A stretch of 24,639 nucleotides of DNA from assembly GCF_000003605.2 (NCBI RefSeq), contig NW_003152837.1, forward strand, positions 1 through 24,639, given 5' to 3'. Of the stretch, positions 1-24,639 are shown piece by piece (the first letter of the stretch is position 1; every line of letters begins with the position of its first letter). This stretch comes from Saccoglossus kowalevskii (lineage: Eukaryota > Hemichordata > Enteropneusta > Harrimaniidae). A program made the translations under genes and the position numbers. The notes below the pieces were generated by a model. That model was not told the DNA's origin. It was given only the letters and a program-made list of their open reading frames with translations, and searched no databases.

Positions 1-68
1 AGTTCATCATTGTGGTTGTGAACAAGATATCGATTAGATGCAGATAATGTTAATTGTATTGGTAAGTA
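1..68 (+). repeat. Aberrant first unit of the window
   Basis: The unit opens AGTTCATCATTG instead of the usual AAGTAGGACTCATTG, and has GTGAACAAGATATC in place of GTGGAACAGGATATC. There is one inserted and one deleted base, leaving the total close to 67. From about base 33 it is consensus. It may be an ordinary degenerate unit or low-quality sequence at a contig end. Confidence 0.7.
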
Positions 69-2210: not shown

Positions 2211-2676
2211 GGACTCATTGTGGTTGTGGAACAGGATATCGATTAGATGCAGATAATGTTAATTGTATTGGTAAGTAGAACTCATTGTGGTTGTGGGAAA
2301 GGATATCGATTAGATGCAGGTAATGTTAATTGTATTGGTAAGTAGGACTCATTGTGGTGGTGGAAAAGGATATCGATTAGATGCAGATAATGTTAATTGT
2401 ATTGGTGAGTAGGACTCATTGTGGTTGTGGAACAGGATATCGATTAGATGCAGATAGTGTTAATTGTATTGGTAAGTAGGACTCATTGTGGTTGTGGAAA
2501 AGGATATCGATTAGATGCAGATAATGATAATTGTATTGGTAAGTAGGACTCATTGTGGTTGTATAACAGGATATCGACTAGATGCAGATAATGTTAATTG
2601 TATTGGTAAGTAGGACTCGTGGTTGTGGAACAGGATATCGATTAGATGCAGATAGTGTTAATTGTATTGGTAAGTA
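2010..2676 (+). repeat. Block G, copy 1 (10 units), repeated at 14718
   Basis: Markers in order are CGACTA (2010), GGATTCATTG (2077), GAACTC with TGTGGGAAAGG and GCAGGTAATG (2278), TGGTGGTGGAAAAGG with GGTGAGTA (2345), GATAGTG (2412), GATAATGATAATTG (2479), CGACTA (2546) and the 64-bp unit (2613). The same series is at 14718-15379, offset 12707 bp at the early markers, where the last three units are heavily decayed. Confidence 0.85.
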
Positions 2677-2810
2677 GGACTCATTGTGGTTGTGGAAAAG
2701 GATATCGATTAGATGCAGATAATGTTAATTGTATTGGTAAGTAGGACTCATTGTGGTGGTGGAACAGGATATCGATTAGATGCAGATAATGTTAATTGTA
2801 TTGGTAAGTA

Positions 2811-3809
2811 GGACTCATTGTGGTTGTGGAACAGGATATCGATTAGATGCAGATAATGATAATTGTATTGGTAAGTAGAACTCATTGTGGTTGTGGAACA
2901 GGATATCGACTAGATGCAGATAATGTTAATTGTATTGGTAAGTAGGACTCGTGGTTGTGGAACAGGATATCGATTAGATGCAGATAATGTTAATTGTATT
3001 GGTAAGTAGGACTCATTGTGGTGGTGGAACAGGATATCGATTAGATGCAGATAATGTTAATTGTATTGGTAAGTAGGACTCATTGTGGTTGTGGAACAGG
3101 ATATCGATTAGATGCTGATAATGTTAATTGTATTGGTAAGTAGGACTCATTGTGGTTGTGAAACAGGATATCGATTAGATGCAGATAATGTTAATTGTAT
3201 TGGTAAGTAGGACTCATTGTGGTTGTGGAACAGGATATCGATTAGATGCAGATAATGTTAATTGTATTGGTAAGTAGGACTCATTGTGGTTGTGGAACAG
3301 GATATCGATTAGATGCAGATAATGTTAATTGTATTGGTAAGTAGGACTCATTGTAGTTGTGGAACAGGATATCGATTAGATGCAGATAATGTTAATTGTA
3401 TTGGTAAGTAGAACTCATTGTGGTGGTGGAACAGGATATCGATTAAATGCAGATAATGTTAATTGTATTGGTAAGTAGGACTCATTGTGGTTGTGGAACA
3501 GGATATCGATTAGATGCAGATAATGTTAATTGTATTGGTAAGTAGGACTCATTGTGGTTGTGGAACAGGATATCGATTGGATGCAGATAATGTTAATTGT
3601 ATTGGTAAGTAGGACTCATTGTGGTTGTGGAACAGGATATCGATTAGATGCAGATAATGATAATTGTATTGGTAAGTAGAACTCATTGTGGTTGTGGAAC
3701 AGGATATCGACTAGATGCAGATAATGTTAATTGTATTGGTAAGTAGGACTCGTGGTTGTGGAACAGGATATCGATTAGATGCAGATAATGTTAATTGTAT
3801 TGGTAAGTA
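2811..3809 (+). repeat. Block with partial plus full C cassette, copy 1 (15 units)
   Basis: The order is GATAATGATAATTG (2811), GAACTC/CGACTA (2878), a 64-bp unit (2945), TGGTGG (3009), GATGCTGATAATG (3076), GTGAAAC (3143), two consensus units, then a full C cassette from 3344. The same order occurs at 10573-11504, which is one unit shorter. GATGCTGATAATG is a rare marker. Confidence 0.85.
3344..3809 (+). repeat. C cassette, copy 1 (7 units, 466 bp)
   Basis: Unit order: TGTAGTTGTGG; GAACTC with TGGTGG and TTAAATGC; consensus; TTGGATGC; GATAATGATAATTG; GAACTC with CGACTA; 64-bp GGACTCGTGG unit. The next unit (3810) carries the rare GGACACATTG plus GAAAAGG, GATTATG and a compensating -1/+1 indel. 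GGACACATTG is otherwise seen only after the copy at 16988. Confidence 0.85.
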
Positions 3810-4279
3810 GGACACATTGTGGTTGTGGAAAAGGATATCGATTAGATGCAGATTATGTTAATTGTATTGTAAGTAAGGACTCATTGTGGTTGTGGAACAG
3901 GATATCGATTAGATGCAGATTAATGTTAATTGTATTGGTAAGTAGGACTCATTGTGGTTGTGGAACAGGATATCGATTAGATGCAGATAATGTTAATTGT
4001 ATTGGTAAGTAGGACTCATTGTGGTTGTGGAACAGGATATCGATTAGATGCAGATAATGTTAATTGTATTGGTAAGTAGGACTCATTGTGGTTGTGGAAC
4101 AAGATATCGATTAGATGCAGATAATGTTAATTGTATTGGTAAGTAGGACTCATTGTGGTTGTGGAACAGGATATCGATTAGATGCAGATAATGTTAATTG
4201 TATTGGTAAGTAGGACTCATTGTGGTTGTGGAACAGGATATCGATTAGATGCAGATAATGTTAATTGTATTGGTAAGTA

Positions 4280-4410
4280 GGACTCATTGTGGTTGTGAAA
4301 CATATCGATTGGATGCAGATAATGTTAATTGTATTGGTAAGTAGGACTCATTGTGGTTGTGAAACATGATATTGATTAGATGCAGATAATGTTAATTGTA
4401 TTGGTAAGTA
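4280..4410 (+). repeat. E cassette, copy 1
   Basis: Two units in series: a 64-bp unit with GTGAAACATATCG and TTGGATGC (3-bp deletion), then one with GTGAAACATGATATTG. The pair recurs at 7361 and 22942, always embedded in near-consensus units. Confidence 0.85.
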
Positions 4411-4678
4411 GGACTCATTGTGGTTGTGGAACAGGATATCGATTAGATGCAGATAATGTTAATTGTATTGGTAAGTAGGACTCATTGTGGTTGTGGAACA
4501 GGATATCAATTAGATGCAGATAATGTTAATTGTATTGGTAAGGAGGACTCATTGTGGTTGTGGAACAAGATATCGATTAGATGCAGATAATGTTAATTGT
4601 ATTGGTAAGTAGGACTCATTGTGGTTGTGGAACAGGATATCGATTAGATGCAGATAATGTTAATTGTATTGGTAAGTA

Positions 4679-5484
4679 GGACTCATTGTGGTTGTGAAAC
4701 ATTATATCGATTGGATGCAGATTATGTTAATTGTATTGGTAAGTAGGACTCATTGTGGTTGTGGAACAGGATATCGATTAGATGCAGATAATGTTAATTG
4801 TATTGGTAAGTAGGACTCATTGTGGTTGTGGAACAGGATATCGATTAGATGCAGATAATGTTAATTGTATTGGTAAGTAGGACTCATTGTGGTTGTGAAA
4901 CATTATATCGATTGGATGCAGATTATGTTAATTGTATTGGTAAGTAGGACTCATTGTGGTTGTGGAACAGGATATCGATTAGATGCAGATAATGTTAATT
5001 GTATTGGTAAGTAGGACTCATTGTGGTTGTGGAACAGGATATCGATTAGATGCAGATTAATGTTAATTGTATTGGTAAGTAGGACTCATTGTGGTTGTGA
5101 AAACATTATATCGATTGGATGCAGATTATGTTAATTGTATTGGTAAGTAGGACTCATTGTGGTTGTGGAACAGGATATCGATTAGATGCAGATAATGTTA
5201 ATTGTATTGGTAAGTAGGACTCATTGTGGTTGTGGAACAGGATATCGATTAGATGCAGATAATGTTAATTGTATTGGTAAGTAGGACTCATTTTGGTTGT
5301 GAAACATTATATCGATTGGATGCAGATTATGTTAATTGTATTGGTAAGTAGGACTCATTGTGGTTGTGGAACAGGATATCGATTAGATGCAGATAATGTT
5401 AATTGTATTGGTAAGTAGGACTCATTGTGGTTGTGGAACAGGATATCGATTAGATGCAGATAATGTTAATTTTATTGGTAAGTA
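4679..5484 (+). repeat. 201-bp higher-order repeat, 4 copies of 3 units
   Basis: A unit with GTGAAACATTATATCG, TTGGATGC and GATTATG recurs every third unit, at 4679, 4880, 5082 and 5284, each time followed by two consensus units. Spacing is 201, 202 and 202 bp; the extra base each time comes from a single-base insertion (in 5014-5081 and 5082-5149). The four copies differ by very few bases, so this is a recent local amplification. Confidence 0.9.
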
Positions 5485-5819
5485 GGACTCATTGTGGTTG
5501 TGGAACAGGATATCGATTAGATGCAGATAATGTTAATTGTATTGGTAAGTAGGACTCATTGTGGTTGTGGAACAGGATATCGATTAGATGCAGATAATGT
5601 TAATTGTATTGGTAAGTAGGACTCATTGTGGTTGTGGAACAGGATATCGATTAGATGCAGATAATGTTAATTGTATTGGTAAGTAGGACTCATTGTGGTT
5701 GTGGAACAGGATATCGATTAGATGCAGATAATGTTAATTGTATTGGTAAGTAGGACTCATTGTGGTTGTGGAACAGGATATCGATTAGATGCAGATAATG
5801 TTAATTGTATTGGTAAGTA

Positions 5820-6221
5820 GAACTCATTGTGGTTATGGAACAGGATATCGATTAGATGCAGATAATGTTAATTGTATTGGTAAGTAGAACTCATTGTGGT
5901 TGTGGAACAGGATATCGATTAGATGCAGATAATGTTAATTGTATTGGTAAGTAGGACTCATTGTGGTTGTGGAACAGGATATCGATTAGATGCAGATAAT
6001 GTTAATTGTATTGGTAAGTAGGACTCATTGTGGTTGTGGAACAGGATATCGATTAGATGCAGATAATGTTAATTGTATTGGTAAGTAGAACTCATTGTGG
6101 TTATGGAACAGGATATCGATTAGATGCAGATAATGTTAATTGTATTGGTAAGTAGAACTCATTGTGGTTGTGGAACAGGATATCGATTAGATGCAGATAA
6201 TGTTAATTGTATTGGTAAGTA
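5820..6221 (+). repeat. 4-unit (268-bp) duplication
   Basis: GAACTC with GGTTATGG followed by a GAACTC unit occurs at 5820/5887 and again at 6088/6155, exactly 268 bp apart. GGTTATGG is not seen elsewhere. The surrounding 5485-7360 is otherwise close to pure consensus. Confidence 0.85.
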
Positions 6222-7360
6222 GGACTCATTGTAGTTGTGGAACAGGATATCGATTAGATGCAGATAATGTGAATTGTATTGGTGAGTAGGACTCATTGTG
6301 GTTGTGGAACAGGATATCGATTAGATGCAGATAATGTTAATTGTATTGGTAAGTAGGACTCATTGTGGTTGTGGAACAGGATATCGATTAGATGCAGATA
6401 ATGTTAATTGTATTGGTAAGTAGGACTCATTGTGGTTGTGGAACAGGATATCGATTAGATGCAGATAATGTTAATTGTATTGGTAAATAGAACTCATTGT
6501 GGTTGTGGAACAGGATATCGATTAGATGCAGATAATGTTAATTGTATTGGTAAGTAGGACTCATTGTGGTTGTGGAACAGGATATCGATTAGATGCAGAT
6601 AATGTTAATTGTATTGGTAAGTAGGACTCATTGTGGTTGTGGAACAGGATATCGATTAGATGCAGATAATGTTAATTGTATTGATAAGTAGGACTCATTG
6701 TGGTTGTGAAACAGGATATCGATTAGATGCAGATAATGTTAATTGTATTGGTAAGTAGGACTCATTGTGGTTGTGGAACAGGATATCGATTAGATGCAGA
6801 TAATGTTAATTGTATTGGTAAGTAGGACTCATTGTGGTTGTGGAACAGGATATCGATTAGATGCAGATAATGTTAATTGTATTGGTAAGTAGGACTCATT
6901 GTGGTTGTGGAACAGGATATCGATTAGATGCAGATAATGTTAATTGTATTGGTAAGTAGGACTCATTGTGGTTGTGGAACAGGATATCGATTAGATGCAG
7001 ATAATGTTAATTGTATTGGTAAGTAGGACTTATTGTGGTTGTGGAACAGGATATCGATTAGATGCAGATAATGTTAATTGTATTGGTAAGTAGGACTCAT
7101 TGTGGTTGTGGAACAGGATATCGATTAGATGCAGATAATGTTAATTGTATTGGTAAGTAGGACTCATTGTGGTTGTGGAACAAGATATCGATTAGATGCA
7201 GATAATGTTAATTGTATTGGTAAGTAGGACTCATTGTGGTTGTGGAACAGGATATCGATTAGATGCAGATAATGTTAATTGTATTGGTAAGTAGGACTCA
7301 TTGTGGTTGTGGAACAGGATATCGATTAGATGCAGATAATGTTAATTGTATTGGTAAGTA

Positions 7361-7692
7361 GGACTCATTGTGGTTGTGAAACATATCGATTGGATGCAGA
7401 TAATGTTAATTGTATTGGTAAGTAGGACTCATTGTGGTTGTGAAACATGATATTGATTAGATGCAGATAATGTTAATTGTATTGGTAAGTAGGACTCATT
7501 GTGGTTGTGGAACAGGATATCGATTAGATGCAGATAATGTTAATTGTATTGGTAAGTAGGACTCATTGTGGTTGTGGAACAGGATATCGATTAGATGCAG
7601 ATAATGTTAATTGTATTGGTAAGTAGGACTCATTGTGGTTGTGAAACAGGATATCGATTGGATGCAGATAATGTTAATTGTATTGGTAAGTA
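7361..7692 (+). repeat. E cassette, copy 2
   Basis: A 64-bp GTGAAACATATCG unit (7361), the GTGAAACATGATATTG unit (7425), two consensus units, then GTGAAAC with TTGGATGC (7626). This extended order also fits the copy at 22942. It sits directly before block B copy 2. Confidence 0.85.
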
Positions 7693-8900
7693 GGACTTAT
7701 TGTGATTGTGCGAACATGGATATCGATTAGGTGCAGATAATGTTAATTGTATTGGTAAGTAGGACTCATTGTGGTTGTGGAACAGGATATCGATTGGATG
7801 CAGATAATGTTAATTGTATTGGTAAGTAGGACTCATTTTGGTGGTGGAACAGGATATCGATTAAATGCAGATAATGTTAATTGTATTGGTAAGTAGGACT
7901 CATTGTGGTTGTGGAACAGGATATCGATTAGATGCAGATAATGTTAATTGTATTGGTAAGTAGGACTCATTGTGGTTGTGGAACAGGATATCGATTGGAT
8001 GCAGATAATGTTAATTGTATTGGTAAGTAGGACTCATTGTGGTGGTGGAACAGGATATCGATTAGATGCAGATAATGTTAATTGTATTGGTAAGTAGAAC
8101 TCATTGTGGTTGTGGAACAGGATATCGATTGGATGCAGATAATGTTAATTGTATTGGTAAGTAGGACTCATTGTGGTTGTGAAACAGGATATCGATTGGA
8201 TGCAGATAATGTTAATTGTATTGGTAAGTAGGACTCATTGTGGTTGTGGAACAGGATATCGATTAGATGCAGATAATGTTAATTGTATTGGTAAGTAGGA
8301 CTCATTGTGGTTGTGAAACAGGATATCAATTAGATGCAGATAATGTTAATTGTATTGGTAAGTAGGACTCATTGTGGTTGTGGAACAGGATATCGATTAG
8401 ATGCAGATAATGTTAATTGTATTGGTAAGTAGAACTCATTGTGGTTGTGAAACAGGATATCGATTAGATGCAGATAATGTTAATTGTATTGGTAAGTAGG
8501 ACTCATTGTGGTTGTGGAACAGGATATCGATTAGATGCAGATAATGTTAATTGTATTGGTAAGTAGAACTCATTGTGGTTGTGAAACAGGATATCGATTA
8601 GATGCAGATAATGTTAATTGTATTGGTAAGTAGGACTCATTGTGGTTGTGGAACAGGATATCGATTGGATGCAGATAATGTTAATTGTATTGGTAAGTAG
8701 GACTCATTGTGGTTGTGGAACAGGATATCGACTAGATGCAGATAATGTTAATTGTATTGGTAAGTAGGATTCATTGTGGTTGTGAAACAGGATATCGATT
8801 GGATGCAGATAATGTTAATTGTATTGGTAAGTAGGACTCATTGTGCTTGTGGAACAGGATATCGACTAGATGCAGATAATGTTAATTGTATTGGTAAGCA
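7693..8900 (+). repeat. Block B, copy 2 (18 units)
   Basis: The same ordered markers as at 1071-2210 appear: GGACTTATTGTGATTG (7693), CATTTTGGTGG with TTAAATGC (7829), GGATTCATTG (8767) and GTGCTTGTGG (8834). It has one extra TGGTGG unit at 8030, so the offset between copies changes from 6622 bp at the left marker to 6690 bp at the right. The first unit is 69 bp because two bases are inserted (GTGCGAACATGG). Confidence 0.85.
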
Positions 8901-9234
8901 GGACTCATTGTGGTTGTGAACAGGATATCGATTAGATGCAGATAATGTTAATTGTATTGGTAAGTAGGACTCATTGTGGTTGTGGAACAGGATATCGATT
9001 AGATGCAGATAATGTTAATTGTATTGATAAGTAGAACTCATTGTGGTTGTGAAACAGGATATCGACTAGATGCAGATAATGTTAATTGTATTGGTAAGTA
9101 GAACTCATTGTGGTTGTGGAACAGGATATCAATTAGATGCAGATAATGTTAATTGTATTGGTAAGTATAACTCATTGTGGTTGTGAAACAGGATATCGAT
9201 TAGATGCAGATAATGTTAATTGTATTGGTAAGTA

Positions 9235-10239
9235 GGACTCATTGTGGTTGTGGAACAGGATATCGATTAGATGCAGATAATGTTAATTGTATCGGTGAGT
9301 AGGACTCATTGTGGTTGTGGAACAGGATATCGATTAGATGCAAATAATGTTAATTGTATTGGTAAGTAGGACTCATTGTGGTTGTGGAAAAGGATATCGA
9401 TTAGATGCAGATAATGTTAATTGTATTGGTAAGTAGAACTCATTGTGGTTGTGAAACAAGATATCGATTAGATGCAGATAATGTTAATTGTATTGGTAAG
9501 TAGGACTCATTGTGGTTGTGGAACAGGATATCGATTAGATGCAAATAATGTTAATTGTATTGGTAAGTATAACTCATTGTGGTTGTGAAACAAGATATCG
9601 ATTAGATGCAGATAATGTTAATTGTATTGGTAAGTAGGACTCATTGTGGTTGAGGAACAGGATATCGATTAGATGCAGATAATGTTAATTGTATTGGTAA
9701 GTAGGACTCATTGTGGTTGTGAGACAAGATATCGATTAGATGCAGATAATGTTAATTGTATTGGTAAGTAGGACTCATTGTGGTTGTGGAACAGGATATC
9801 GACTAGATGCAGATAATGTTAATTGTATTGGTAAGTAGGACTCATTGTGGTTGTGAAACAGGATATCGATTAGATGCAGATAATGTTAATTGTATTGGTA
9901 AGTAGAACTCATTGTGGTTGTGGAACAGGATATCGACTAGATGCAGATAATGTTAATTGTATTGGTAAGTAGGACTCATTGTGGTTGTGGAACAGGATAT
10001 CGATTAGATGCAGATAATGTTAATTGTATTGGTAAGTAGGACTCATTGTGGTGGTGGAAAAGGATATCGATTAGATGCAGATAATGTTAATTGTATTGGT
10101 GAGTAGGACTCATTGTGGTTGTGGAACAGGATATCGATTAGATGCAGATAGTGTTAATTGTATTGGTAAGTAGGACTCATTGTGGTTGTGGAAAAGGATA
10201 TCGATTAGATGCAGATAATGTTAATTGTATTGGTAAGTA
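9235..10239 (+). repeat. D cassette, copy 1 (15 units)
   Basis: Ordered markers: ATCGGTGAGT (end of the 9235 unit), GCAAATAATG (9302), GAAAAGG (9369), GAACTC/GTGAAACAAG (9436), GCAAATAATG (9503), TAACTC/GTGAAACAAG (9570), GGTTGAGG (9637), GTGAGACAAG (9704), CGACTA (9771), GTGAAAC (9838), GAACTC/CGACTA (9905), consensus, TGGTGGTGGAAAAGG with GGTGAGTA (10039), GATAGTG (10106), GAAAAGG (10173). It is related to 11974-12911 and 17521-19128. Confidence 0.85.
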
Positions 10240-10306
10240 GGACTCATTGTGGTTGTGGAACAGGATATCGATTAGATGCAGATAATGTTAATTGTATTGG
10301 TAAGTA

Positions 10307-10770
10307 GGACTCATTGTAGTTGTGGAACAGGATATCGATTAGATGCAGATAATTAATTGTATTGGTAAGTAGAACTCATTGTGGTGGTGGAACAGGATAT
10401 CGATTAAATGCAGATAATGTTAATTGTATTGGTAAGTAGGACTCATTGTGGTTGTGGAACAGGATATCGATTAGATGCAGATAATGTTAATTGTATTGGT
10501 AAGTAGGACTCATTGTGGTTGTGGAACAGGATATCGATTGGATGCAGATAATGTTAATTGTATTGGTAAGTAGGACTCATTGTGGTTGTGGAACAGGATA
10601 TCGATTAGATGCAGATAATGATAATTGTATTGGTAAGTAGAACTCATTGTGGTTGTGGAACAGGATATCGACTAGATGCAGATAATGTTAATTGTATTGG
10701 TAAGTAGGACTCGTGGTTGTGGAACAGGATATCGATTAGATGCAGATAATGTTAATTGTATTGGTAAGTA
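10307..10770 (+). repeat. C cassette, copy 2 (7 units, 464 bp)
   Basis: Same marker order as at 3344: TGTAGTTGTGG; GAACTC/TGGTGG/TTAAATGC; consensus; TTGGATGC; GATAATGATAATTG; GAACTC/CGACTA; 64-bp unit. A 2-bp deletion in the first unit (GATAATTAATTG) makes it 65 bp. Confidence 0.85.
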
Positions 10771-11105
10771 GGACTCATTGTGGTGGTGGAACAGGATATC
10801 GATTAGATGCAGATAATGTTAATTGTATTGGTAAGTAGGACTCATTGTGGTTGTGGAACAGGATATCGATTAGATGCTGATAATGTTAATTGTATTGGTA
10901 AGTAGGACTCATTGTGGTTGTGAAACAGGATATCGATTAGATGCAGATAATGTTAATTGTATTGGTAAGTAGGACTCATTGTGGTTGTGGAACAGGATAT
11001 CGATTAGATGCAGATAATGTTAATTGTATTGGTAAGTAGGACTCATTGTGGTTGTGGAACAGGATATCGATTAGATGCAGATAATGTTAATTGTATTGGT
11101 AAGTA

Positions 11106-11504
11106 GGACTCATTGTAGTTGTGGAACAGGATATCGATTAGATGCAGATAATGTTAATTGTATTGGTAAGTAGAACTCATTGTGGTGGTGGAACAGGATA
11201 TCGATTAAATGCAGATAATGTTAATTGTATTGGTAAGTAGGACTCATTGTGGTTGTGGAACAGGATATCGATTAGATGCAGATAATGTTAATTGTATTGG
11301 TAAGTAGGACTCATTGTGGTTGTGGAACAGGATATCGATTAGATGCAGATAATGATAATTGTATTGGTAAGTAGAACTCATTGTGGTTGTGGAACAGGAT
11401 ATCGACTAGATGCAGATAATGTTAATTGTATTGGTAAGTAGGACTCGTGGTTGTGGAACAGGATATCGATTAGATGCAGATAATGTTAATTGTATTGGTA
11501 AGTA
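11106..11504 (+). repeat. C cassette, copy 3 (6 units, 399 bp)
   Basis: Same markers as the other C cassettes, but the TTGGATGC unit is missing between the consensus unit (11240) and the GATAATGATAATTG unit (11307). It lies 799 bp after copy 2, which gives the local C-spacer-C arrangement seen in truncated form at 2811-3809. Confidence 0.85.
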
Positions 11505-11973
11505 GGACTCATTGTGGTTGTGGAAAAGGATATCGATTAGATGCAGATTATGTTAATTGTATTGGTAAGTAGGACTCATTGTGGTGGTGGAACAGGATAT
11601 CGATTAGATGCAGATAATGTTAATTGTATTGGTAAGTAGGACTCATTGTGGTTGTGGAACAGGATATCGATTAGATGCAGATAATGTTAATTGTATTGGT
11701 AAGTAGGACTCATTGTGGTTGTGAAACAGGATATCGATTAGATGCAGATAATGTTAATTGTATTGGTAAGTAGGACTCATTGTGGTTGTGGAACAGGATA
11801 TCGATTAGATGCAGATAATGTTATTTGTATTGGTAAGTAGGACTCATTGTGGTTGTGGAACAGGATATCGATTAGATGCAGATAATGTTAATTGTATTGG
11901 TAAGTAGGACTCATTGTGGTTGTGGAACAGGATATCGATTAGATGCAGATAATGTTAATTGTATTGGTAAGTA

Positions 11974-12911
11974 GAACTCATTGTGGTTGTGAAACAAGAT
12001 ATCGATTAGATGCAGATAATGTTAATTGTATTGGTGAGTAGGACTCATTGTGGTTGTGGAACAGGATATCGATTAGATGCAGATAATGTTAATTGTATTG
12101 GTAAGTATAACTCATTGTGGTTGTGAAACAAGATATCGATTAGATGCAGATAATGTTAATTGTATTGGTAAGTAGGACTCATTGTGGTTGAGGAACAGGA
12201 TATCGATTAGATGCAGATAATGTTAATTGTATTGGTAAGTAGAACTCATTGTGGTTGTGAAACAAGATATCGATTAGATGCAGATAATGTTAATTGTATT
12301 GGTAAGTAGGACTCATTGTGGTTGTGAGACAAGATATCGATTAGATGCAGATAATGTTAATTGTATTGGTAAGTAGGACTCATTGTGGTTGTGGAACAGG
12401 ATATCGACTAGATGCAGATAATGTTAATTGTATTGGTAAGTAGGACTCATTGTGGTTGTGAAACAGGATATCGATTAGATGCAGATAATGTTAATTGTAT
12501 TGGTAAGTAGAACTCATTGTGGTTGTGGAACAGGATATCGACTAGATGCAGATAATGTTAATTGTATTGGTAAGTAGGACTCATTGTGGTTGTGGAACAG
12601 GATATCGATTAGATGCAGATAATGTTAATTGTATTGGTAAGTAGGACTCATTGTGGTGGTGGAAAAGGATATCGATTAGATGCAGATAATGTTAATTGTA
12701 TTGGTGAGTAGGACTCATTGTGGTTGTGGAACAGGATATCGATTAGATGCAGATAGTGTTAATTGTATTGGTAAGTAGGACTCATTGTGGTTGTGGAAAA
12801 GGATATCGATTAGATGCAGATAATGATAATTGTATTGGTAAGTAGGACTCATTGTGGTTGTGGAAAAGGATATCGATTAGATGCAGATAATGTTAATTGT
12901 ATTGGTAAGTA
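11974..12911 (+). repeat. D cassette, copy 2 (14 units)
   Basis: GAACTC/GTGAAACAAG with GGTGAGT (11974), consensus, TAACTC/GTGAAACAAG (12108), GGTTGAGG (12175), GAACTC/GTGAAACAAG (12242), GTGAGACAAG (12309), then the shared run CGACTA, GTGAAAC, GAACTC/CGACTA, consensus, TGGTGGTGGAAAAGG (12644), GATAGTG (12711), and GAAAAGG with GATAATGATAATTG (12778). It has one 4-unit module where 17722-18525 has three. Confidence 0.85.
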
Positions 12912-13112
12912 GAACTCATTGTGGTTGTGGAACAGGATATCGATTAGATGCAGATAATGTTAATTGTATTGGTAAGTAGAACTCATTGTGGTTGTGGAAC
13001 AGGATATCGATTAGATGCAGATAATGTTAATTGTATTGGTAAGTAGGACTCATTGTGGTTGTGGAAAAGGATATCGATTAGATGCAGATAATGTTAATTG
13101 TATTGGTAAGTA

Positions 13113-13578
13113 GGACTCATTGTAGTTGTGGAACAGGATATCGATTAGATGCAGATAATGTTAATTGTATTGGTAAGTAGAACTCATTGTGGTGGTGGAA
13201 CAGGATATCGATTAAATGCAGATAATGTTAATTGTATTGGTAAGTAGGACTCATTGTGGTTGTGGAACAGGATATCGATTAGATGCAGATAATGTTAATT
13301 GTATTGGTAAGTAGGACTCATTGTGGTTGTGGAACAGGATATCGATTGGATGCAGATAATGTTAATTGTATTGGTAAGTAGGACTCATTGTGGTTGTGGA
13401 ACAGGATATCGATTAGATGCAGATAATGATAATTGTATTGGTAAGTAGAACTCATTGTGGTTGTGGAACAGGATATCGACTAGATGCAGATAATGTTAAT
13501 TGTATTGGTAAGTAGGACTCGTGGTTGTGGAACAGGATATCGATTAGATGCAGATAATGTTAATTGTATTGGTAAGTA
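13113..13578 (+). repeat. C cassette, copy 4 (7 units, 466 bp)
   Basis: Complete order as at 3344, ending in the 64-bp unit at 13515. It is followed by GAAAAGG/GATTATG (13579) and TGGTGG (13646), as also after copy 3 (11505, 11572). Confidence 0.85.
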
Positions 13579-16451
13579 GGACTCATTGTGGTTGTGGAAA
13601 AGGATATCGATTAGATGCAGATTATGTTAATTGTATTGGTAAGTAGGACTCATTGTGGTGGTGGAACAGGATATCGATTAGATGCAGATAATGTTAATTG
13701 TATTGGTAAGTAGGACTCATTGTGGTTGTGGAACAGGATATCGATTAGATGCAGATAATGTTAATTGTATTGGTAAGTAGGACTCATTGTGGTTGTGAAA
13801 CAGGATATCGATTAGATGCAGATAATGTTAATTGTATTGGTAAGTAGGACTCATTGTGGTTGTGGAACAGGATATCGATTAGATGCAGATAATGTTAATT
13901 GTATTGGTAAGTAGGACTCATTGTGGTTGTGGAACAGGATATCGATTAGATGCAGATAATGTTAATTGTATTGGTAAGTAGGACTCATTGTGGTTGTGGA
14001 ACAGGATATCGATTAGATGCAGATAATGTTAATTGTATTGGTAAGTAGGACTCATTGTGGTGGTGGAACAGGATATCGATTAAATGCAGATAATGTTAAT
14101 TGTATTGGTAAGTAGGACTCATTGTGGTTGTGAAACAGGATATTGATTAGATGCAGATAATGTTAATTGTATTGGTAAGTAGGACTCATTGTGGTTGTGG
14201 AACAGGATATCGATTGGATGCAGATAATGTTAATTGTATTGGTAAGTAGGACTCATTGTGGTGGTGGAACTGGATATCGATTAGATGCAGATAATGTTAA
14301 TTGTATTGGTAAGTAGAACTCATTGTGGTTGTGGAACAGGATATCGATTGGATGCAGATAATGTTAATTGTAGTGGTAAGTAGGACTCATTGTGGTTGTG
14401 GAACAGGATATCGATTAGATGCAGATAATGTTAATTGTATTGGTAAGTATGACTCATTGTGGTTGTGGAACAGGATATCAATTAGATGCAGATAATGTTA
14501 ATTGTATTGGTAAGTAGGACTCATTGTGGTTGTGGAACAGGATATCGATTAGATGCAGATAATGTTAATTGTATTGGTAAGTAGAACTCATTGTGGTTGT
14601 GAAACAGGATATCGATTAGATGCAGATAATGTTAATTGTATTGGTAAGTAGGACTCATTGTGGTTGTGGAACAGGATATCGATTGGATGCAGATAATGTT
14701 AATTGTATTGGTAAGTAGGACTCATTGTGGTTGTGGAACAGGATATCGACTAGATGCAGATAATTTAATTGTATTGGTAAGTAGGATTCATTGTGGTTGT
14801 GAAACAGGATATCGATTGGATGCAGATAATGTTAATTGTATTGGTAAGTAGGACTCATTGTGGTTGTGGAACAGGATATCGACTAGATGCAGATAATGTT
14901 AATTGTATTGGTAAGTAGGACTCATTGTGGTTGTGGAACAGGATATCGATTAGATGCAGATAATGTTAATTGTATTGGTAAGTAGAACTCATTGTGGTTG
15001 TGGGAAAGGATATCGATTAGATGCAGGTAATGTTAATTGTATTGGTAAGTAGGACTCATTGTGGTGGTGGAAAAGGATATCGATTAGATGCAGATAATGT
15101 TAATTGTATTGGTGAGTAGGACTCATTGTGGTTGTGGAACAGGATATCGATTAGATGCAGATAGTGTTAATTGTATTGGTAAGTAGGACTCATTGTGGTT
15201 GTGGAACAGGATATAGATTAGATGCACATAATGATAATTGTATTGGTAAGTACGACTCATTGTGGTTGTGGAACAGATATCAACTAGATGCAGATAATGT
15301 TAATTGTATTGGTAATAGACTCGTGGTTGTGGACAGGATATCGATTAGATGCAGATAATGTTAATTGTATTGGTAAGTAGGACTCATTGTGGTTGTGGAA
15401 AAGGATATCGATTAGATGCAGATTATGTTAATTGTATTGGTAAGTAGGACTCATTGTGGTGGTGGAACAGGATATCGATTAGATGCAGATAATGTTAATT
15501 GTATTGGTAAGTAGGACTCATTGTGGTTGTGGAACAGGATATCGATTAGATGCAGATAATGTTAATTGTATTGGTAAGTAGGACTCATTGTGGTTGTGAA
15601 ACAGGATATCGATTAGATGCAGATAATGTTAATTGTATTGGTAAGTAGGACTCATTGTGGTTGTGGAACAGGATATCGATTAGATGCAGATAATGTTATT
15701 TGTATTGGTAAGTAGGACTCATTGTGGTTGTGGAACAGGATATCGATTAGATGCAGATAATGTTAATTGTATTGGTAAGTAGGACTCATTGTGGTTGTGG
15801 AACAGGATATCGATTAGATGCAGATAATGTTAATTGTATTGGTAAGTAGGACTCATTGTGGTGGTGGAACAGGATATCGATTAAATGCAGATAATGTTAA
15901 TTGTATTGGTAAGTAGGACTCATTGTGGTTGTGGAACAGGATATCGATTAGATGCAGATAATGTTAATTGTATTGGTAAGTAGGACTCATTGTGGTTGTG
16001 GAACAGGATATCGATTGGATGCAGATAATGTTAATTGTATTGGTAAGTAGGACTCATTGTGGTGGTGGAACAGGATATCGATTAGATGCAGATAATGTTA
16101 ATTGTATTGGTAAGTAGAACTCATTGTGGTTGTGGAACAGGATATCGATTGGATGCAGATAATGTTAATTGTATTGGTAAGTAGCACTCATTGTGGTTGT
16201 GGAACAGAATATCGATTAGATGCAGATAATGTTAATTGTATTGGTAAGTATGACTCATTGTGGTTGTGGAACAGGATATCAATTAGATGCAGATAATGTT
16301 AATTGTATTGGTAAGTAGGACTCATTGTGGTTGTGGAACAGGATATCGATTAGATGCAGATAATGTTAATTGTATTGGTAAGTAGAACTCATTGTGGTTG
16401 TGAAACAGGATATCGATTAGATGCAGATAATGTTAATTGTATTGGTAAGTA
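13381..16451 (+). repeat. 27-unit (about 1.8 kb) tandem duplication
   Basis: Units from 13381 to 14650 correspond in order to units from 15186 to 16451. The shared series is GATAATGATAATTG, CGACTA, shortened GGACTCGTGG unit, GAAAAGG/GATTATG (13579, 15380), TGGTGG, consensus, GTGAAAC, two or three near-consensus units, TGGTGG/TTAAATGC (14048, 15849), TTGGATGC, TGGTGG, GAACTC/TTGGATGC, the rare TGACTC/ATATCAATT unit (14450, 16251), and GAACTC/GTGAAAC (14584, 16385). Offset is 1801 bp after the decayed region. The intervening 14651-15185 is block G copy 2. Confidence 0.8.
14718..15379 (+). repeat. Block G, copy 2, with decayed right end
   Basis: Same series as 2010-2676: CGACTA with a 1-bp deletion (14718), GGATTCATTG (14784), TGTGGGAAAGG/GCAGGTAATG (14985), TGGTGGTGGAAAAGG (15052), GATAGTG (15119). 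The units at 15186, 15253 and 15318 carry several unique substitutions and four 1-bp deletions besides the usual 3-bp one, giving lengths of 67, 65 and 62. Confidence 0.85.
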
Positions 16452-16987
16452 GGACTCATTGTGGTTGTGGAACAGGATATCGATTAGATGCAGATAATGT
16501 TAATTGTATTGGTAAGTAGGACTCATTGTGGTTGTGGAACAGGATATCGATTGGATGCAGATAATGTTAATTGTATTGGTAAGTAGAACTCATTGTGGTT
16601 GTGGAACAGGATATCGATTGGATGCAGATAATGTTAATTGTATTGGTAAGTAGGACTCATTGTGGTTGTGAAACAGGATATCGATTGGATGCAGATAATG
16701 TTAATTGTATTGGTAAGTAGGACTCATTGTGGTTGTGGAACAGGATATCGATTAGATGCAGATAATGTTAATTGTATTGGTAAGTAGGACTCATTGTGGT
16801 TGTGGAACAGGATATCAATTAGATGCAGATAATGTTAATTGTATTGGTAAGTAGGACTCATTGTGGTTGTGGAACAGGATATCGATTAGATGCAGATAAT
16901 GTTAATTGTATTGGTAAGTAGAACTCATTGTGGTTGTGAAACAGGATATCGATTAGATGCAGATAATGTTAATTGTATTGGTAAGTA

Positions 16988-17453
16988 GGACTCATTGTAG
17001 TTGTGGAACAGGATATCGATTAGATGCAGATAATGTTAATTGTATTGGTAAGTAGAACTCATTGTGGTGGTGGAACAGGATATCGATTAAATGCAGATAA
17101 TGTTAATTGTATTGGTAAGTAGGACTCATTGTGGTTGTGGAACAGGATATCGATTAGATGCAGATAATGTTAATTGTATTGGTAAGTAGGACTCATTGTG
17201 GTTGTGGAACAGGATATCGATTGGATGCAGATAATGTTAATTGTATTGGTAAGTAGGACTCATTGTGGTTGTGGAACAGGATATCGATTAGATGCAGATA
17301 ATGATAATTGTATTGGTAAGTAGAACTCATTGTGGTTGTGGAACAGGATATCGACTAGATGCAGATAATGTTAATTGTATTGGTAAGTAGGACTCGTGGT
17401 TGTGGAACAGGATATCGATTAGATGCAGATAATGTTAATTGTATTGGTAAGTA
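16988..17453 (+). repeat. C cassette, copy 5 (7 units, 466 bp)
   Basis: Complete C order, ending in the 64-bp unit at 17390 and followed by GGACACATTG/GAAAAGG/GATTATG (17454). GGACACATTG is shared only with the unit at 3810, so copies 1 and 5 are the closest pair although 13.6 kb apart. Confidence 0.85.
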
Positions 17454-17520
17454 GGACACATTGTGGTTGTGGAAAAGGATATCGATTAGATGCAGATTAT
17501 GTTAATTGTATTGGTAAGTA

Positions 17521-19128
17521 GGACTCATTGTGGTTGTGGAACAGGATATCGATTAGATGCAGATAATGTTAATTGTATCGGTGAGTAGGACTCATTGTGG
17601 TTGTGGAACAGGATATCGATTAGATGCAAATAATGTTAATTGTATTGGTAAGTAGGACTCATTGTGGTTGTGGAAAAGGATATCGATTAGATGCAGATAA
17701 TGTTAATTGTATTGGTAAGTAGAACTCATTGTGGTTGTGAAACAAGATATCGATTAGATGCAGATAATGTTAATTGTATTGGTGAGTAGGACTCATTGTG
17801 GTTGTGGAACAGGATATCGATTAGATGCAGATAATGTTAATTGTATTGGTAAGTATAACTCATTGTGGTTGTGAAACAAGATATCGATTAGATGCAGATA
17901 ATGTTAATTGTATTGGTAAGTAGGACTCATTGTGGTTGAGGAACAGGATATCGATTAGATGCAGATAATGTTAATTGTATTGGTAAGTAGAACTCATTGT
18001 GGTTGTGAAACAAGATATCGATTAGATGCCGATAATGTTAATTGTATTGGTGAGTAGGACTCATTGTGGTTGTGGAACAGGATATCGATTAGATGCAGAT
18101 AATGTTAATTGTATTGGTAAGTATAACTCATTGTGGTTGTGAAACAAGATATCGATTAGATGCAGATAATGTTAATTGTATTGGTAAGTAGGACTCATTG
18201 TGGTTGAGGAACAGGATATCGATTAGATGCAGATAATGTTAATTGTATTGGTAAGTAGAACTCATTGTGGTTGTGAAACAAGATATCGATTAGATGCCGA
18301 TAATGTTAATTGTATTGGTGAGTAGGACTCATTGTGGTTGTGGAACAGGATATCGATTAGATGCAGATAATGTTAATTGTATTGGTAAGTATAACTCATT
18401 GTGGTTGTGAAACAAGATATCGATTAGATGCAGATAATGTTAATTGTATTGGTAAGTAGGACTCATTGTGGTTGAGGAACAGGATATCGATTAGATGCAG
18501 ATAATGTTAATTGTATTGGTAAGTAGGACTCATTGTGGTTGAGGAACAGGATATCGATTAGATGCAGATAATGTTAATTGTATTGGTAAGTAGGACTCAT
18601 TGTGGTTGTGAGACAAGATATCGATTAGATGCAGATAATGTTAATTGTATTGGTAAGTAGGACTCATTGTGGTTGTGGAACAGGATATCGACTAGATGCA
18701 GATAATGTTAATTGTATTGGTAAGTAGGACTCATTGTGGTTGTGAAACAGGATATCGATTAGATGCAGATAATGTTAATTGTATTGGTAAGTAGAACTCA
18801 TTGTGGTTGTGGAACAGGATATCGACTAGATGCAGATAATGTTAATTGTATTGGTAAGTAGGACTCATTGTGGTTGTGGAACAGGATATCGATTAGATGC
18901 AGATAATGTTAATTGTATTGGTAAGTAGGACTCATTGTGGTGGTGGAAAAGGATATCGATTAGATGCAGATAATGTTAATTGTATTGGTGAGTAGGACTC
19001 ATTGTGGTTGTGGAACAGGATATCGATTAGATGCAGATAGTGTTAATTGTATTGGTAAGTAGGACTCATTGTGGTTGTGGAAAAGGATATCGATTAGATG
19101 CAGATAATGATAATTGTATTGGTAAGTA
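17521..19128 (+). repeat. D cassette, copy 3 (24 units)
   Basis: It opens with ATCGGTGAGT, GCAAATAATG (17588) and GAAAAGG (17655), as at 9235. It is expanded by three 4-unit modules (17722-18525), then continues GGTTGAGG (18526), GTGAGACAAG (18593), CGACTA, GTGAAAC, GAACTC/CGACTA, consensus, TGGTGGTGGAAAAGG (18928), GATAGTG (18995), GAAAAGG/GATAATGATAATTG (19062). It is the longest of the three D copies. Confidence 0.85.
17722..18525 (+). repeat. 268-bp higher-order repeat, 3 copies of 4 units
   Basis: Module: GAACTC/GTGAAACAAG with GGTGAGTA; consensus; TAACTC/GTGAAACAAG; GGTTGAGG. TAACTC units start at 17856, 18124 and 18392, exactly 268 bp apart. Modules 2 and 3 also share GATGCCGATAATG (18030 and 18298), which is absent from module 1, so they are the most recent duplication. 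Confidence 0.92.
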
Positions 19129-19798
19129 GGACTCATTGTGGTTGTGGAACAGGATATCGACTAGATGCAGATAATGTTAATTGTATTGGTAAGTAGGACT
19201 CATTGTGGTTGTGGAACAGGATATCGATTAGATGCAGATAATGTTAATTGTATTGGTAAGTAGGACTCATTGTGGTTGTGGAACAGGATATCGATTAGAT
19301 GCAGATAATGTTAATTGTATTGGTAAGTAGGACTCATTGTGGTTGTGGAACAGGATATCGATTAGATGCAGATAATGTTAATTGTATTGGTAAGTAGGAC
19401 TCATTGTGGTTGTGGAAAAGGATATCGATTAGATGCAGATAATGTTAATTGTATTGGTAAGTAGAACTCATTGTGGTTGTGGAACAGGATATCGATTAGA
19501 TGCAGATAATGTTAATTGTATTGGTAAGTAGAACTCATTGTGGTTGTGGAACAGGATATCGATTAGATGCAGATAATGTTAATTGTATTGGTAAGTAGGA
19601 CTCATTGTGGTTGTGGAAAAGGATATCGATTAGATGCAGATAATGTTAATTGTATTGGTAAGTAGAACTCATTGTGGTTGTGGAACAGGATATCGATTAG
19701 ATGCAGATAATGTTAATTGTATTGGTAAGTAGAACTCATTGTGGTTGTGAAACAAGATATCGATTAGATGCAGATAATGTTAATTGTATTGGTAAGTA

Positions 19799-21470
19799 GG
19801 ACTCATTGTGGTTGTGAAACAGGATATCGATTAGATGCAGATAATGTTAATTGTATTGGTAAGTAGAACTGATTGTGGTTGTGGAACAGGATATCGATTA
19901 GATGCAGATAATGTTAATTGTATTGGTAAGTAGGACTCATTGTGGTTGTGGAACAGGATATCGATTAGATGCAGACAATGTTAATTGTATTGGTAAGTAG
20001 GACTCATTGTGGTTGTGGAACAGGATATCGATTAGATGCAGATAATGTTAATTGTATTGGTAAGTAGGACTCATTGTGGTTGTGGAACAGGATATCGATT
20101 AGATGCAGATAATGTTAATTGTATTGGTAAGTAGGACTCATTGTGGTTGTGGAACAGGATATCGACTAGATGCAGATAATGTTAATTGTATTGGTAAGTA
20201 GAACTCATTGTGGTTGTGGAACAGGATATCGATTAGATGCAGATAATGTTAATTGTATTGGTAAGTAGGACTCATTGTGGTGGTGGAACAGGATATCGAT
20301 TAGATGCAGATAATGTTAATTGTATTGGTAAGTAGGACTCATTGTGGTTGTGGAACAGGATATCGATTAGATGCAGATAATGTTAATTGTATTGGTAAGT
20401 AGGACTCATTGTGGTGGTGGAACAGGATATCGATTAGATGCAGATAATGTTAATTGTATTGGTAAGTAGGACTCATTGTGGTTGTGGAACAGGATATCGA
20501 TTAGATGCAGATAATGTTAATTGTATTGGCAAGTAGGACTCGTGGTTGTGGAACAGGATATCAATTAGATGCAGATAATGTTAATTGTATTGGTAAGTAG
20601 GACTTATTGTGATTGTGGAACAGGATATCGATTAGGTGCAGATAATGTTAATTGTATTGGTAAGTAGGACTCATTGTGGTTGTGGAACAGGATATCGATT
20701 GGATGCAGATAATGTTAATTGTATTGGTAAGTAGGACTCATTTTGGTGGTGGAACAGGATATCGATTAAATGCAGATAATGTTAATTGTATTGGTAAGTA
20801 GGACTCATTGTGGTTGTGGAACAGGATATCGATTAGATGCAGATAATGTTAATTGTATTGGTAAGTAGGACTCATTGTGGTTGTGGAACAGGATATCGAT
20901 TGGATGCAGATAATGTTAATTGTATTGGTAAGTAGGACTCATTGTGGTTGTGGAACAGGATATCGATTGGATGCAGATAATGTTAATTGTATTGGTAAGT
21001 AGGACTCATTGTGGTGGTGAAACAGGATATCGATTAGATGCAGATAATGTTAATTGTATTGGTAAGTAGAACTCATTGTGGTTGTGGAACAGGATATCGA
21101 TTGGATGCAGATAATGTTAATTGTATTGGTAAGTAGGACTCATTGTGGTTGTGAAACAGGATATCGATTGGATGCAGATAATGTTAATTGTATTGGTAAG
21201 TAGGACTCATTGTGGTTGTGGAACAGGATATCGATTAGATGCAGATAATGTTAATTGTATTGGTAAGTAGGACTCATTGTGGTTGTGGAACAGGATATCA
21301 ATTAGATGCAGATAATGTTAATTGTATTGGTAAGTAGGACTCATTGTGGTTGTGGAACAGGATATCGATTAGATGCAGATAATGTTAATTGTATTGGTAA
21401 GTAGAACTCATTGTGGTTGTGAAACAGGATATCAATTAGATGCAGACAATGTTAATTGTATTGGTAAGTA
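19799..21470 (+). repeat. Higher-order block A, copy 2 (25 units)
   Basis: It starts GTGAAAC (19799), GAACTGATT (19866), GCAGACAATG (19933), then CGACTA, GAACTC, TGGTGG, GGCAAGTA plus the 64-bp unit (20536), GGACTTATTGTGATTG (20600), CATTTTGGTGG/TTAAATGC (20734). GAACTGATT occurs only here and at 136. The match to copy 1 is offset by 19730 bp at that marker. It ends around a unit with both ATATCAATT and GACAATG (21404). Confidence 0.88.
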
Positions 21471-21671
21471 GAACTCATTGTGGTTGTGGAACAGGATATC
21501 GATTAGATGCAGATAATGTTAATTGTATTGGTAAGTAGGACTCATTGTGGTTGTGGAACAGGATATCGATTAGATGCAGATAATGTTAATTGTATTGGTA
21601 AGTAGGACTCATTGTGGTTGTGGAACAGGATATCGATTAGATGCAGATAATGTTAATTGTATTGGTAAGTA

Positions 21672-22740
21672 GGACTCATTGTGGTTGTGGAACAGGATAT
21701 CGACTAGATGCAGATAATGTTAATTGTATTGGTAAGTAGAACTCATTGTGGTTGTGGAACAGGATATCGATTAGATGCAGATAATGTTAATTGTATTGGT
21801 AAGTAGGACTCATTGTGGTGGTGGAACAGGATATCGATTAGATGCAGATAATGTTAATTGTATTGGTAAGTAGGACTCATTGTGGTTGTGGAACAGGATA
21901 TCGATTAGATGCAGATAATGTTAATTGTATTGGTAAGTAGGACTCATTGTGATGGTGGAACAGGATATCGATTAGATGCAGATAATGTTAATTGTATTGG
22001 TAAGTAGGACTCATTGTGGTTGTGGAACAGGATATCGATTAGATGCTGATAATGTTAATTGTATTGGCAAGTAGGACTCGTGGTTGTGGAACAGGATATC
22101 AATTAGATGCAGATAATGTTAATTGTATTGGTAAGTAGGACTTATTGTGATTGTGGAACAGGATATCGATTAGGTGCAGATAATGTTAATTGTATTGGTA
22201 AGTAGGACTCATTGTGGTTGTGGAACAGGATATCGATTGGATGCAGATAATGTTAATTGTATTGGTAAGTAGGACTCATTTTGGTGGTGGAACAGGATAT
22301 CGATTAAATGCAGATAATGTTAATTGTATTGGTAAGTAGGACTCATTGTGGTTGTGGAACAGGATATCGATTAGATGCAGATAATGTTAATTGTATTGGT
22401 AAGTAGGACTCATTGTGGTTGTGGAACAGGATATCGATTGGATGCAGATAATGTTAATTGTATTGGTAAGTAGGACTCATTGTGGTGGTGGAACAGGATA
22501 TCGATTAGATGCAGATAATGTTAATTGTATTGGTAAGTAGAACTCATTGTGGTTGTGGAACAGGATATCGATTGGATGCAGATAATGTTAATTGTATTGG
22601 TAAGTAGGACTCATTGTGGTTGTGAAACAGGATATCGATTGGATGCAGATAATGTTAATTGTATTGGTAAGTAGGACTCATTGTGGTTGTGGAACAGGAT
22701 ATCGATTAGATGCAGATAATGTTAATTGTATTGGTAAGTA
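21672..22740 (+). repeat. Higher-order block A, copy 3 (partial, 16 units)
   Basis: It repeats the series of 20134-21269 after 23 units (1538 bp): CGACTA (21672), GAACTC, TGGTGG, consensus, GATGGTGG (21940), GATGCTGATAATG with GGCAAGTA (22007), 64-bp unit (22074), GGACTTATTGTGATTG (22138), CATTTTGGTGG/TTAAATGC (22272), GAACTC/TTGGATGC (22540), GTGAAAC/TTGGATGC (22607). One unit fewer is present after the TTAAATGC marker. Confidence 0.85.
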
Positions 22741-22941
22741 GGACTCATTGTGGTTGTGAAACAGGATATCGATTAGATGCAGATAATGTTAATTGTATTG
22801 GTAAGTAGGACTCATTGTGGTTGTGGAACAGGATATCGATTAGATGCAGATAATGTTAATTGTATTGGTAAGTAGGACTCATTGTGGTTGTGGAACAGGA
22901 TATCGATTAGATGCAGATAATGTTAATTGTATTGGTAAGTA

Positions 22942-23273
22942 GGACTCATTGTGGTTGTGAAACATATCGATTGGATGCAGATAATGTTAATTGTATTGGT
23001 AAGTAGGACTCATTGTGGTTGTTAAACATGATATTGATTAGATGCAGATAATGTTAATTGTATTGGTAAGTAGGACTCATTGTGGTTGTGGAACAGGATA
23101 TCGATTAGATGCAGATAATGTTAATTGTATTGGTAAGTAGGACTCATTGTGGTTGTGGAACAGGATATCGATTAGATGCAGATAATGTTAATTGTATTGG
23201 TAAGTAGGACTCATTGTTGTTGTGAAACAGGATATCGATTGGATGCAGATAATGTTAATTGTATTGGTAAGTA
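22942..23273 (+). repeat. E cassette, copy 3
   Basis: A 64-bp GTGAAACATATCG unit (22942), GTTAAACATGATATTG (23006), two consensus units, then GTTGTTGTGAAAC with TTGGATGC (23207). Same order as 7361-7692. Confidence 0.85.
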
Positions 23274-24271
23274 GGACTCATTGTGGTTGTGGAACAGGAT
23301 ATCGATTAGATGCAGATAATGTTAATTGTATTGGTAAGTAGGACTCATTGTGGTTGTGGAACAGGATATTGATTAGATGCAGATAATGTTAATTGTATTG
23401 GTAAGTAGGACTCATTGTGGTTGTGGAACAGGATATCGATTAGATGCAGATAATGTTAATTGTATTGGTAAGTAGGACTCATTGTGGTTGTGGAACAGGA
23501 TATCGATTAGATGCAGATAATGTTAATTGTATTGGTAAGTAGGACTCATTGTGGTTGTGGAACAGGATATCGATTAGATGCAGATAATGTTAATTGTATT
23601 GGTAAGTAGGACTCATTGTGGTTGTGGAACAGGATATCGATTAGATGCAGATAATGTTAATTGTATTGATAAGTAGGACTCATTGTGGTTGTGAAACAGG
23701 ATATCGATTAGATGCAGATAATGTTAATTGTATTGGTAAGTAGGACTCATTGTGGTTGTGGAACAGGATATCGATTAGATGCAGATAATGTTAATTGTAT
23801 TGGTAAGTAGGACTCATTGTGGTTGTGGAACAGGATATCGATTAGATGCAGATAATGTTAATTGTATTGGTAAGTAGGACTCATTGTGGTTGTGGAACAG
23901 GATATCGATTAGATGCAGATAATGTTAATTGTATTGGTAAGTAGGACTCATTGTGGTTGTGAAACAGGATATCGATTGGATGCAGATAATGTTAATTGTA
24001 TTGGTAAGTAGGACTCATTGTGGTTGTGGAACAGGATATCGATTAGATGCAGATAATGTTAATTGTATTGGTAAGTAGGACTCATTGTGGTTGTGGAACA
24101 GGATATTGATTAGATGCAGATAATGTTAATTGTATTGGTAAGTAGGACTCATTGTGGTTGTGGAACAGGATATCGATTAGATGCAGATAATGTTAATTGT
24201 ATTGGTAAGTAGGACTCATTGTGGTTGTGGAACAGGATATCGATTAGATGCAGATAATGTTAATTGTATTG
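23207..24271 (+). repeat. 11-unit (737-bp) duplication at the right end of the array
   Basis: GTGAAAC/TTGGATGC, consensus, GATATTGATTAG occurs at 23207, 23274 and 23341, and again at 23944, 24011 and 24078. Everything else here is almost pure consensus, apart from GATAAGTA at about 23668 and the GTGAAAC unit at 23676, which also occur as a pair at 6681/6691. Confidence 0.8.
24212..24271 (+). pseudogene. EGF-like domain exon remnant (C-terminal half), last unit of the array
   Basis: Read from 24217, this unit encodes HCGCGTGYRLDADNVNCI, then one base (G) before GTAAGT. The spacing C-x-C-x(2)-G-Y-x-L-x(2)-D-x(3)-C, with 12 residues between the second and third cysteine shown, matches the C4-C5-C6 part of calcium-binding-type EGF domains. 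It also satisfies the general EGF signature C-x-C-x(2)-[GP]-[FYW]-x(4,8)-C. Cysteine codons lie at unit bases 9-11, 15-17 and 54-56. The reading frame is cut after the first base of a codon (phase 1), the usual phase of EGF exon borders, and that G could begin the Asp or Glu that often follows the last cysteine. The first three cysteines of a full domain are absent: upstream lies only another copy of the unit. The same remnant occurs in most of the 363 units. This copy is singled out because it alone is followed by different downstream sequence, so it may be the authentic exon end or simply the array border. Homology is inferred from motif only. Confidence 0.6.
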
Positions 24272-24298
24272 GTAAGTTGTAATGTTTCAATACATTAA
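24260..24298 (+). other. Inverted repeat placing the donor GTAAGT in a hairpin loop
   Basis: TTAATTGTATTG (24260-24271), the end of the last 67-bp unit, is complementary to CAATACATTAA (24288-24298) in the first 51-bp copy. There are 7 pairs, one bulged T, then 4 pairs. The 16-base loop at 24272-24287 holds GTAAGTTG. The stem is AT-rich with only two G-C pairs, so stability would be modest. The pairing is visible directly; any function is speculative. Confidence 0.4.
24269..24279 (+). promoter_or_regulatory. 5' splice-donor-like site at the array/intron border
   Basis: The sequence TTG|GTAAGTTG has G at -1 and the full consensus GTAAGT at +1 to +6. It lies immediately after the EGF-like frame in phase 1. 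In the other 67-bp units the same position reads TTG|GTAAGTAG, so a donor-like site recurs about 360 times. Variants include GTGAGT, GCAAGT and GATAAGT. No convincing acceptor (polypyrimidine tract plus AG) is visible on the + strand inside either repeat. Use as a splice site is inference. Confidence 0.5.
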
Positions 24299-24639
24299 AT
24301 ATGTTCAACTATGTTGCATGGTGTAAGTTGTAATGTTTCAATACATTAAATATGTTCAACTATGTTGCATGGTGTAAGTTGTAATGTTTCAATACATTCA
24401 ATATGTTCAACTATGTTGCATGGTGTAAGTTGTAATGTTTCAATACATTAAATATGTTCAACTATCTTGCATGGTGCAAGTTGTAATGTTTCAATACATT
24501 AAATATGTTCAACTATCTTGCATGGTGTAAGTTGTAATGTTTCAATACATTAAATGTGTTCAACTATCTTGCATGGTGTAAGTTGTAATGTTTAAATACA
24601 TTAATTATGTTCAACTATCTTGCATGGTGTAGGTTGTGA
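24272..24639 (+). repeat. 51-bp tandem repeat, 7.2 copies, running off the right edge
   Basis: Copies start at 24272, 24323, 24374, 24425, 24476, 24527 and 24578, with an 11-base stub at 24629. Each begins GTAAGTTGTAATGTTTC and ends TTGCATGGT. Consensus composition is A16 C5 G9 T21, with no CpG. Copies 1 and 2 are identical and copy 3 differs by one base. Copies 4-7 share TATCTTGC in place of TATGTTGC, copy 5 begins GCAAG, and copies 6 and 7 have further changes. Although 51 is a multiple of three, all six frames of the consensus contain a stop, so the repeat is non-coding. Apart from GTAAGT at its start it is unrelated in the direct orientation to the 67-bp unit. Its position directly after a predicted donor suggests an intronic minisatellite, but a second satellite family joined at a 6-bp microhomology is an alternative. 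Confidence 0.98.

Follow-up and report, generated by a model that had tools for sequence, protein, structure and literature searches.

Minisatellites and satellite DNA consist of head-to-tail, homogenised and non-coding repeats extending over tens of kilobases, and we know of no founding sequence for many such tandem arrays. The 67-bp tandem array described here, from Saccoglossus kowalevskii, is alike in these respects. Its unit also resembles the phase-1 exons of EGF-like domains (Pfam cEGF, PF12662; EGF_CA, PF07645), with which it shares the pattern from the fourth to the sixth cysteine (C4 to C6), one further codon and a G|GT donor. The initial annotation of this sequence had regarded the repeat as a satellite born from a fragment of an EGF gene. 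Our analyses uphold the EGF frame and the border layout on which that proposal was built, while no source exon was found and the repeat proved to occupy one locus of the assembly. The end of an EGF exon together with its splice donor is nevertheless the best origin that we can propose for the unit.

Layout and variation of the tandem arrays

The window, i.e. the whole stretch of DNA analysed, is the entire contig C4279 (24,639 bases), taken from an assembly that comprises 4,830 contigs and 572 Mb. It holds two tandem arrays, with units of 67 and 51 bp, and nothing else. The features discussed below are the following:

7..24277, + strand: tandem array of a 67-bp unit, about 363 copies (TRF and wrap-around alignment)
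24212..24216, + strand: GGACT, possibly exonic, preceding the EGF-like part of the terminal copy, with T where Y or F is usual (C4-2 comparison)
24217..24271, + strand: putative EGF-like exon end in the terminal copy, HCGCGTGYRLDADNVNCI plus the first base of the next codon (sequence, Pfam cEGF, shuffles)
24272..24277, + strand: GTAAGT, donor-like hexamer in phase 1, one codon past the last cysteine (sequence, comparison of layout in the genome)
24272..24637, + strand: second tandem array, 51-bp unit, 7.2 copies (TRF)

The copy number initially given, at least 363, was reproduced both by TRF (period 67, 362.9 copies, 96% matches over 7-24277) and by wrap-around alignment, which yielded 363 copies with a mean identity to the consensus of 0.979 (97.9%), including 102 copies identical to it. 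This number is a minimum, since the left end of the contig cuts into the array. In the copy alignment, identity does not decay toward the right end of the array. Minor variants recur in the unit, namely G to A at position 1, T to G at 14, G to A at position 18 and the loss of ATT at 6-8. That variants recur, partly in alternating runs along 7-24277, points to local copying or to a higher-order pattern.

When a 36-bp core of the unit was sought genome-wide with up to 3 mismatches, all 357 matches fell in this window, and no copy outside the array was found in the whole assembly. The repeat is tandem, short in unit, homogenised and present at one locus, and as assembled it forms a single-locus array of the minisatellite kind, not a dispersed satellite, assembly collapse being possible; to call it a satellite was therefore an overstatement. 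No Rfam match was obtained over 20000-24639, the part searched, and viral contigs contained no exact match to a 31-mer.

The second array has its start at 24272, precisely where the donor-like hexamer of the terminal 67-bp copy starts. A 41-mer of its unit gave seven matches genome-wide at up to 3 mismatches, all seven in this contig. Internal copies of the 67-bp unit continue as GTAAGTAGGACT and the terminal copy continues as GTAAGTTG, which the 51-bp unit also carries. As these letters are present on both sides, the two arrays could have been joined at them, and this bears on one alternative to our preferred reading, in which an EGF exon end left its gene, as a copy or by moving, and was amplified at another place, with the 67/51 junction arising later when two arrays joined at GTAAGT. 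Against such a history, the genome-wide search with the 36-bp core did not turn up another copy at a parent gene, and a 23-mer spanning the junction resembles native EGF borders: at up to 2 mismatches, it was found genome-wide at its own position and at 12 EGF exon borders in C85, and nowhere else. At 3 mismatches, eight further places outside the contig appeared, one of them in C1739, which has EGF_CA matches, and the reversed pattern used as a control gave five matches at up to 3 mismatches. The likeness to C85 is weak support because of these control matches and because the cysteine codon and the donor are common to EGF borders in any case. We regard amplification away from the parent gene as a possible, tentatively entertained history; the sequence of the junction hints that it may instead be a native exon-intron border. 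When the sampled EGF introns were compared with both donor continuations, nothing clear emerged apart from the suggestive C85 border.

The same likeness to C85 provides a weak link between the contig and the rest of the genome, which is a slight point against C4279 being a contaminant from another organism. That neither repeat is closely matched elsewhere in the assembly, and that the contig holds two arrays alone, would fit a foreign source, but we consider contamination unlikely.

EGF likeness of the unit and EGF exon borders in the genome

One + strand frame of the 67-bp unit reads THCGCGTGYRLDADNVNCI and then G|GTAAGTAG, so that the donor reads G|GTAAGT. In the terminal copy (24212-24277), this frame runs CAT TGT GGT TGT GGA ACA GGA TAT CGA TTA GAT GCA GAT AAT GTT AAT TGT ATT G|GTAAGT, with CAT at 24217-24219, the last cysteine codon at 24265-24267 and the exon-like end at 24271. 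The open frame contains the C4-x-C5-x2-G-[YF] ... C6 pattern of EGF domains. Only the last three cysteines are represented, a complete six-cysteine domain being absent from the unit. The calcium-binding type assigned in the initial annotation is not readable from the unit, which lacks the N-terminal half of the domain, where the calcium ligands lie.

The EGF frame itself was borne out by profile comparison. The best Pfam match was cEGF (E 2.3e-4; 21.4 bits, below the curated cut-off of 26.6), followed by FXa_inhibition (E 4.5e-4; 20.8 bits, below the curated cut-off of 33.4). The strict pattern C-x-C-x2-G-[YF]-x-L-x2-[DN]-x3-C was absent from all 60,000 dinucleotide-shuffled versions of the unit, and a looser EGF pattern occurred in three of 60,000; both patterns were composed post hoc from the sequence already seen, so these figures serve as guides, and the Pfam result is independent of that choice. 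A search of PDB sequences gave seven matches with E values from 0.38 to 8.8, none of them significant, all seven to proteins which we take to contain EGF domains.

We used the EGF exon ends of the same genome as a control. An EGF_CA profile search of the assembly gave 1,266 first-look candidates, the best 150 of which were scored, and contig C4279 was not among the matches listed. From 30 loci fetched around the best matches, 89 distinct C4-to-C6 segments were collected; they are the best profile matches and include overlapping or near-identical neighbours, which makes the sample a biased one. In 76 of the 89, one codon follows C6 and the exon then ends in G|GT (NNN G|GT), and in four more a single codon is followed by another base before GT (NNN H|GT); of the remaining segments, four run on into a D codon and five show other arrangements. 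The TGT ATT G|GTAAGT of the unit is the majority layout of these exon ends, in agreement with the phase-1 border described initially. The spacing of 12 residues between C5 and C6, put forward initially as that of the calcium-binding EGF type, is the commonest class (36 of 89). Judged from its sequence, the GT in phase 1 one codon past C6 marks a putative 5' splice site of an EGF exon, and the shared border layout is what most strongly favours the EGF origin put forward in the initial annotation.

The left limit of the exon-derived part is less secure. The residue two before C4 is T in the unit; of 91 exon ends of the genome, 88 have Y or F there, and the EGF likeness of the unit breaks off at the residue before C4. 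The source exon may have been odd at this place; alternatively, AGGACT represents intron or filler sequence and the exon part measures about 55 bp, so that the division into roughly 60 bp of exon and 7 bp of intron originally given is insecure. The terminal copy goes on with GTAAGTTG and internal copies with GTAAGTAG, a difference that does not settle the length of the exon part.

Search for a source exon

The decisive check suggested at the outset was an exon match of at least 50 bp ending at TATTG|GTAAGT. No such exon was recovered, all 357 core matches lying in C4279. A genome-wide pattern for LDADNVNCI followed by G, the donor and then any base but A retrieved the terminal copy only, as did border patterns barring the repeat's own continuation, and a left-edge pattern had no match in the assembly. 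With the 19-residue frame as a query, 361 candidates were obtained and 150 scored, all 150 in C4279, the search being saturated by the array. Compared with the unit plus donor, the best exons in the fetched loci agreed at 40 of 64 bases, above the maximum of 39 reached by 300 shuffles. For the 57 coding bases alone, the best agreement was 34/57, which 22 of the 300 shuffles equalled, and for this reason nucleotide kinship to any single exon is not established.

A composite EGF query of 41 residues (1,034 candidates, best 150 scored) ranked a single exon, in C1940, above the array copies, with 74% identity; the N-terminal half of the query had been modelled on that exon, and the match is biased and was discarded as evidence of origin. 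Below it stood the array copies and then, mostly lower, other EGF-like matches.

In the assembly, 70,000 bases sampled by place contained 22,494 N, of which 20,000 lay in two all-N stretches; two of the seven stretches sampled were entirely N (gaps or masked). Because part of the assembly is N and the left flank of the array is unassembled, the absence of a source exon is less telling than if the genome were complete.

These results bear on the simplest alternative, namely that a non-coding minisatellite unit came by chance to resemble half of an EGF domain with a donor-like hexamer behind it. The missing source exon, a coding-part match that does not exceed shuffles and the lack of an aromatic residue at C4-2 all speak for it; it has to contend with the cEGF E value, the strict pattern absent from all shuffles and a donor at exactly the position of the genome's EGF borders. 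We judge such a coincidence unlikely.

Proposed origin of the array and comparison with known systems

We infer, with a probability of about 80%, that the 67-bp unit is the 3' end of an EGF exon plus the start of the following intron, and that a duplication spanning their border expanded into the present single-locus array. The points against descent from an EGF exon have been given above: no near source exon in the assembly, Pfam scores below the curated cut-offs, no aromatic residue at C4-2, a coding part that shuffles can equal and no clear match of either intron continuation to the sampled EGF introns. On the other side stands the agreement of unit plus donor with EGF exon ends, which no shuffle attained. 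The unit would comprise about 55-61 bp from the 3' end of an exon encoding an EGF domain and 6-12 bp of the next intron, with the 5' splice site included. The founding step would have been a short tandem duplication that spanned the boundary of exon and intron, and unequal exchange or slippage at this one locus may then have led to growth and homogenisation to about 363 copies or more; the minor variants common to scattered copies agree with such repeated copying inside the array.

The array would most likely lie inside or beside its parent gene. As each duplicate would bring its own donor, the upstream exon and its splicing could stay unchanged: should the leftmost copy still complete that exon, splicing would use the first donor, and the later copies would be intronic and free to drift. 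Such a setting would explain both the single locus and the missing constraint. That the parent is still a live EGF gene, in which one intron begins with the array and duplications across the exon end are hidden from selection, is a doubtful proposition.

The copies give no sign of coding constraint. Stops occur in 13 of the 363 copies and frameshifts in 11, and the second cysteine of the frame is lost by one change in 34. GGTAAGT is retained in 340/363. Of the single changes that the coding part allows, 11 of 38 synonymous types were observed, and 35 of 133 nonsynonymous ones; among transitions, 80 of 227 events were synonymous, compared with 20 of 57 possible ones, events that are not independent, as changes are common to several copies. 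The strict EGF pattern persists in 265 of the 363 copies, as would be expected if the array were translated as serial EGF pieces. However, 67 is not a multiple of three, the consensus frame runs into GK-stop and synonymous changes are not in excess. Furthermore, a long array of EGF exons elsewhere in this genome (C2146, below) is open in all exons analysed, unlike the copies here, and we regard a coding repeat as extremely improbable.

Tandem arrays of EGF exon plus intron with a unit of about 252 bp occur in C2146:1-8000, in C85 and in C216:281446-286261, possibly as a giant multi-EGF gene. The first 8 kb of C2146 hold 31.7 copies of the 252-bp unit, with all 29 analysed exons open, a divergence of 3.3% in the exon against 5.6% in the intron, and exon divergences of 2.0, 3.2 and 4.9% at codon positions 1, 2 and 3. 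The units were cut with an expression that included the donor, so conservation of the donor is partly by construction. A 25-mer pattern of the exon end had 316 matches genome-wide at up to 3 mismatches (reversed control, 0), and all matches listed were in C85, C216 and C2146.

Should a live EGF gene indeed hold the array in this way, it would illustrate how genes in general may give rise to tandem arrays of tens of kilobases at the ends of their exons, and an array located within its own gene would reveal how donor-carrying duplications evade selection. Here a coding frame and an in-phase splice site are still visible, so that a case for a gene origin can be made and the duplication that founded the array could be located. 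Among titles found in the open-licence literature, none concerned an array built from an EGF exon end, which is no proof of novelty.

Compared with EGF-like exons, the unit is devoid of the N-terminal half, of an acceptor and of the aromatic residue at C4-2. It differs from known minisatellites and satellite DNA in having a recognisable gene origin, as we read it, and a splice donor, at one locus in the assembly. The 252-bp arrays of the same genome are similar in that EGF exon sequence was tandemly amplified with the same border phase. They repeat the whole exon with both splice sites and stay open, whereas the 67-bp array repeats the exon end only and drifts, which makes these long arrays of intact EGF exons its coding counterpart for comparison.
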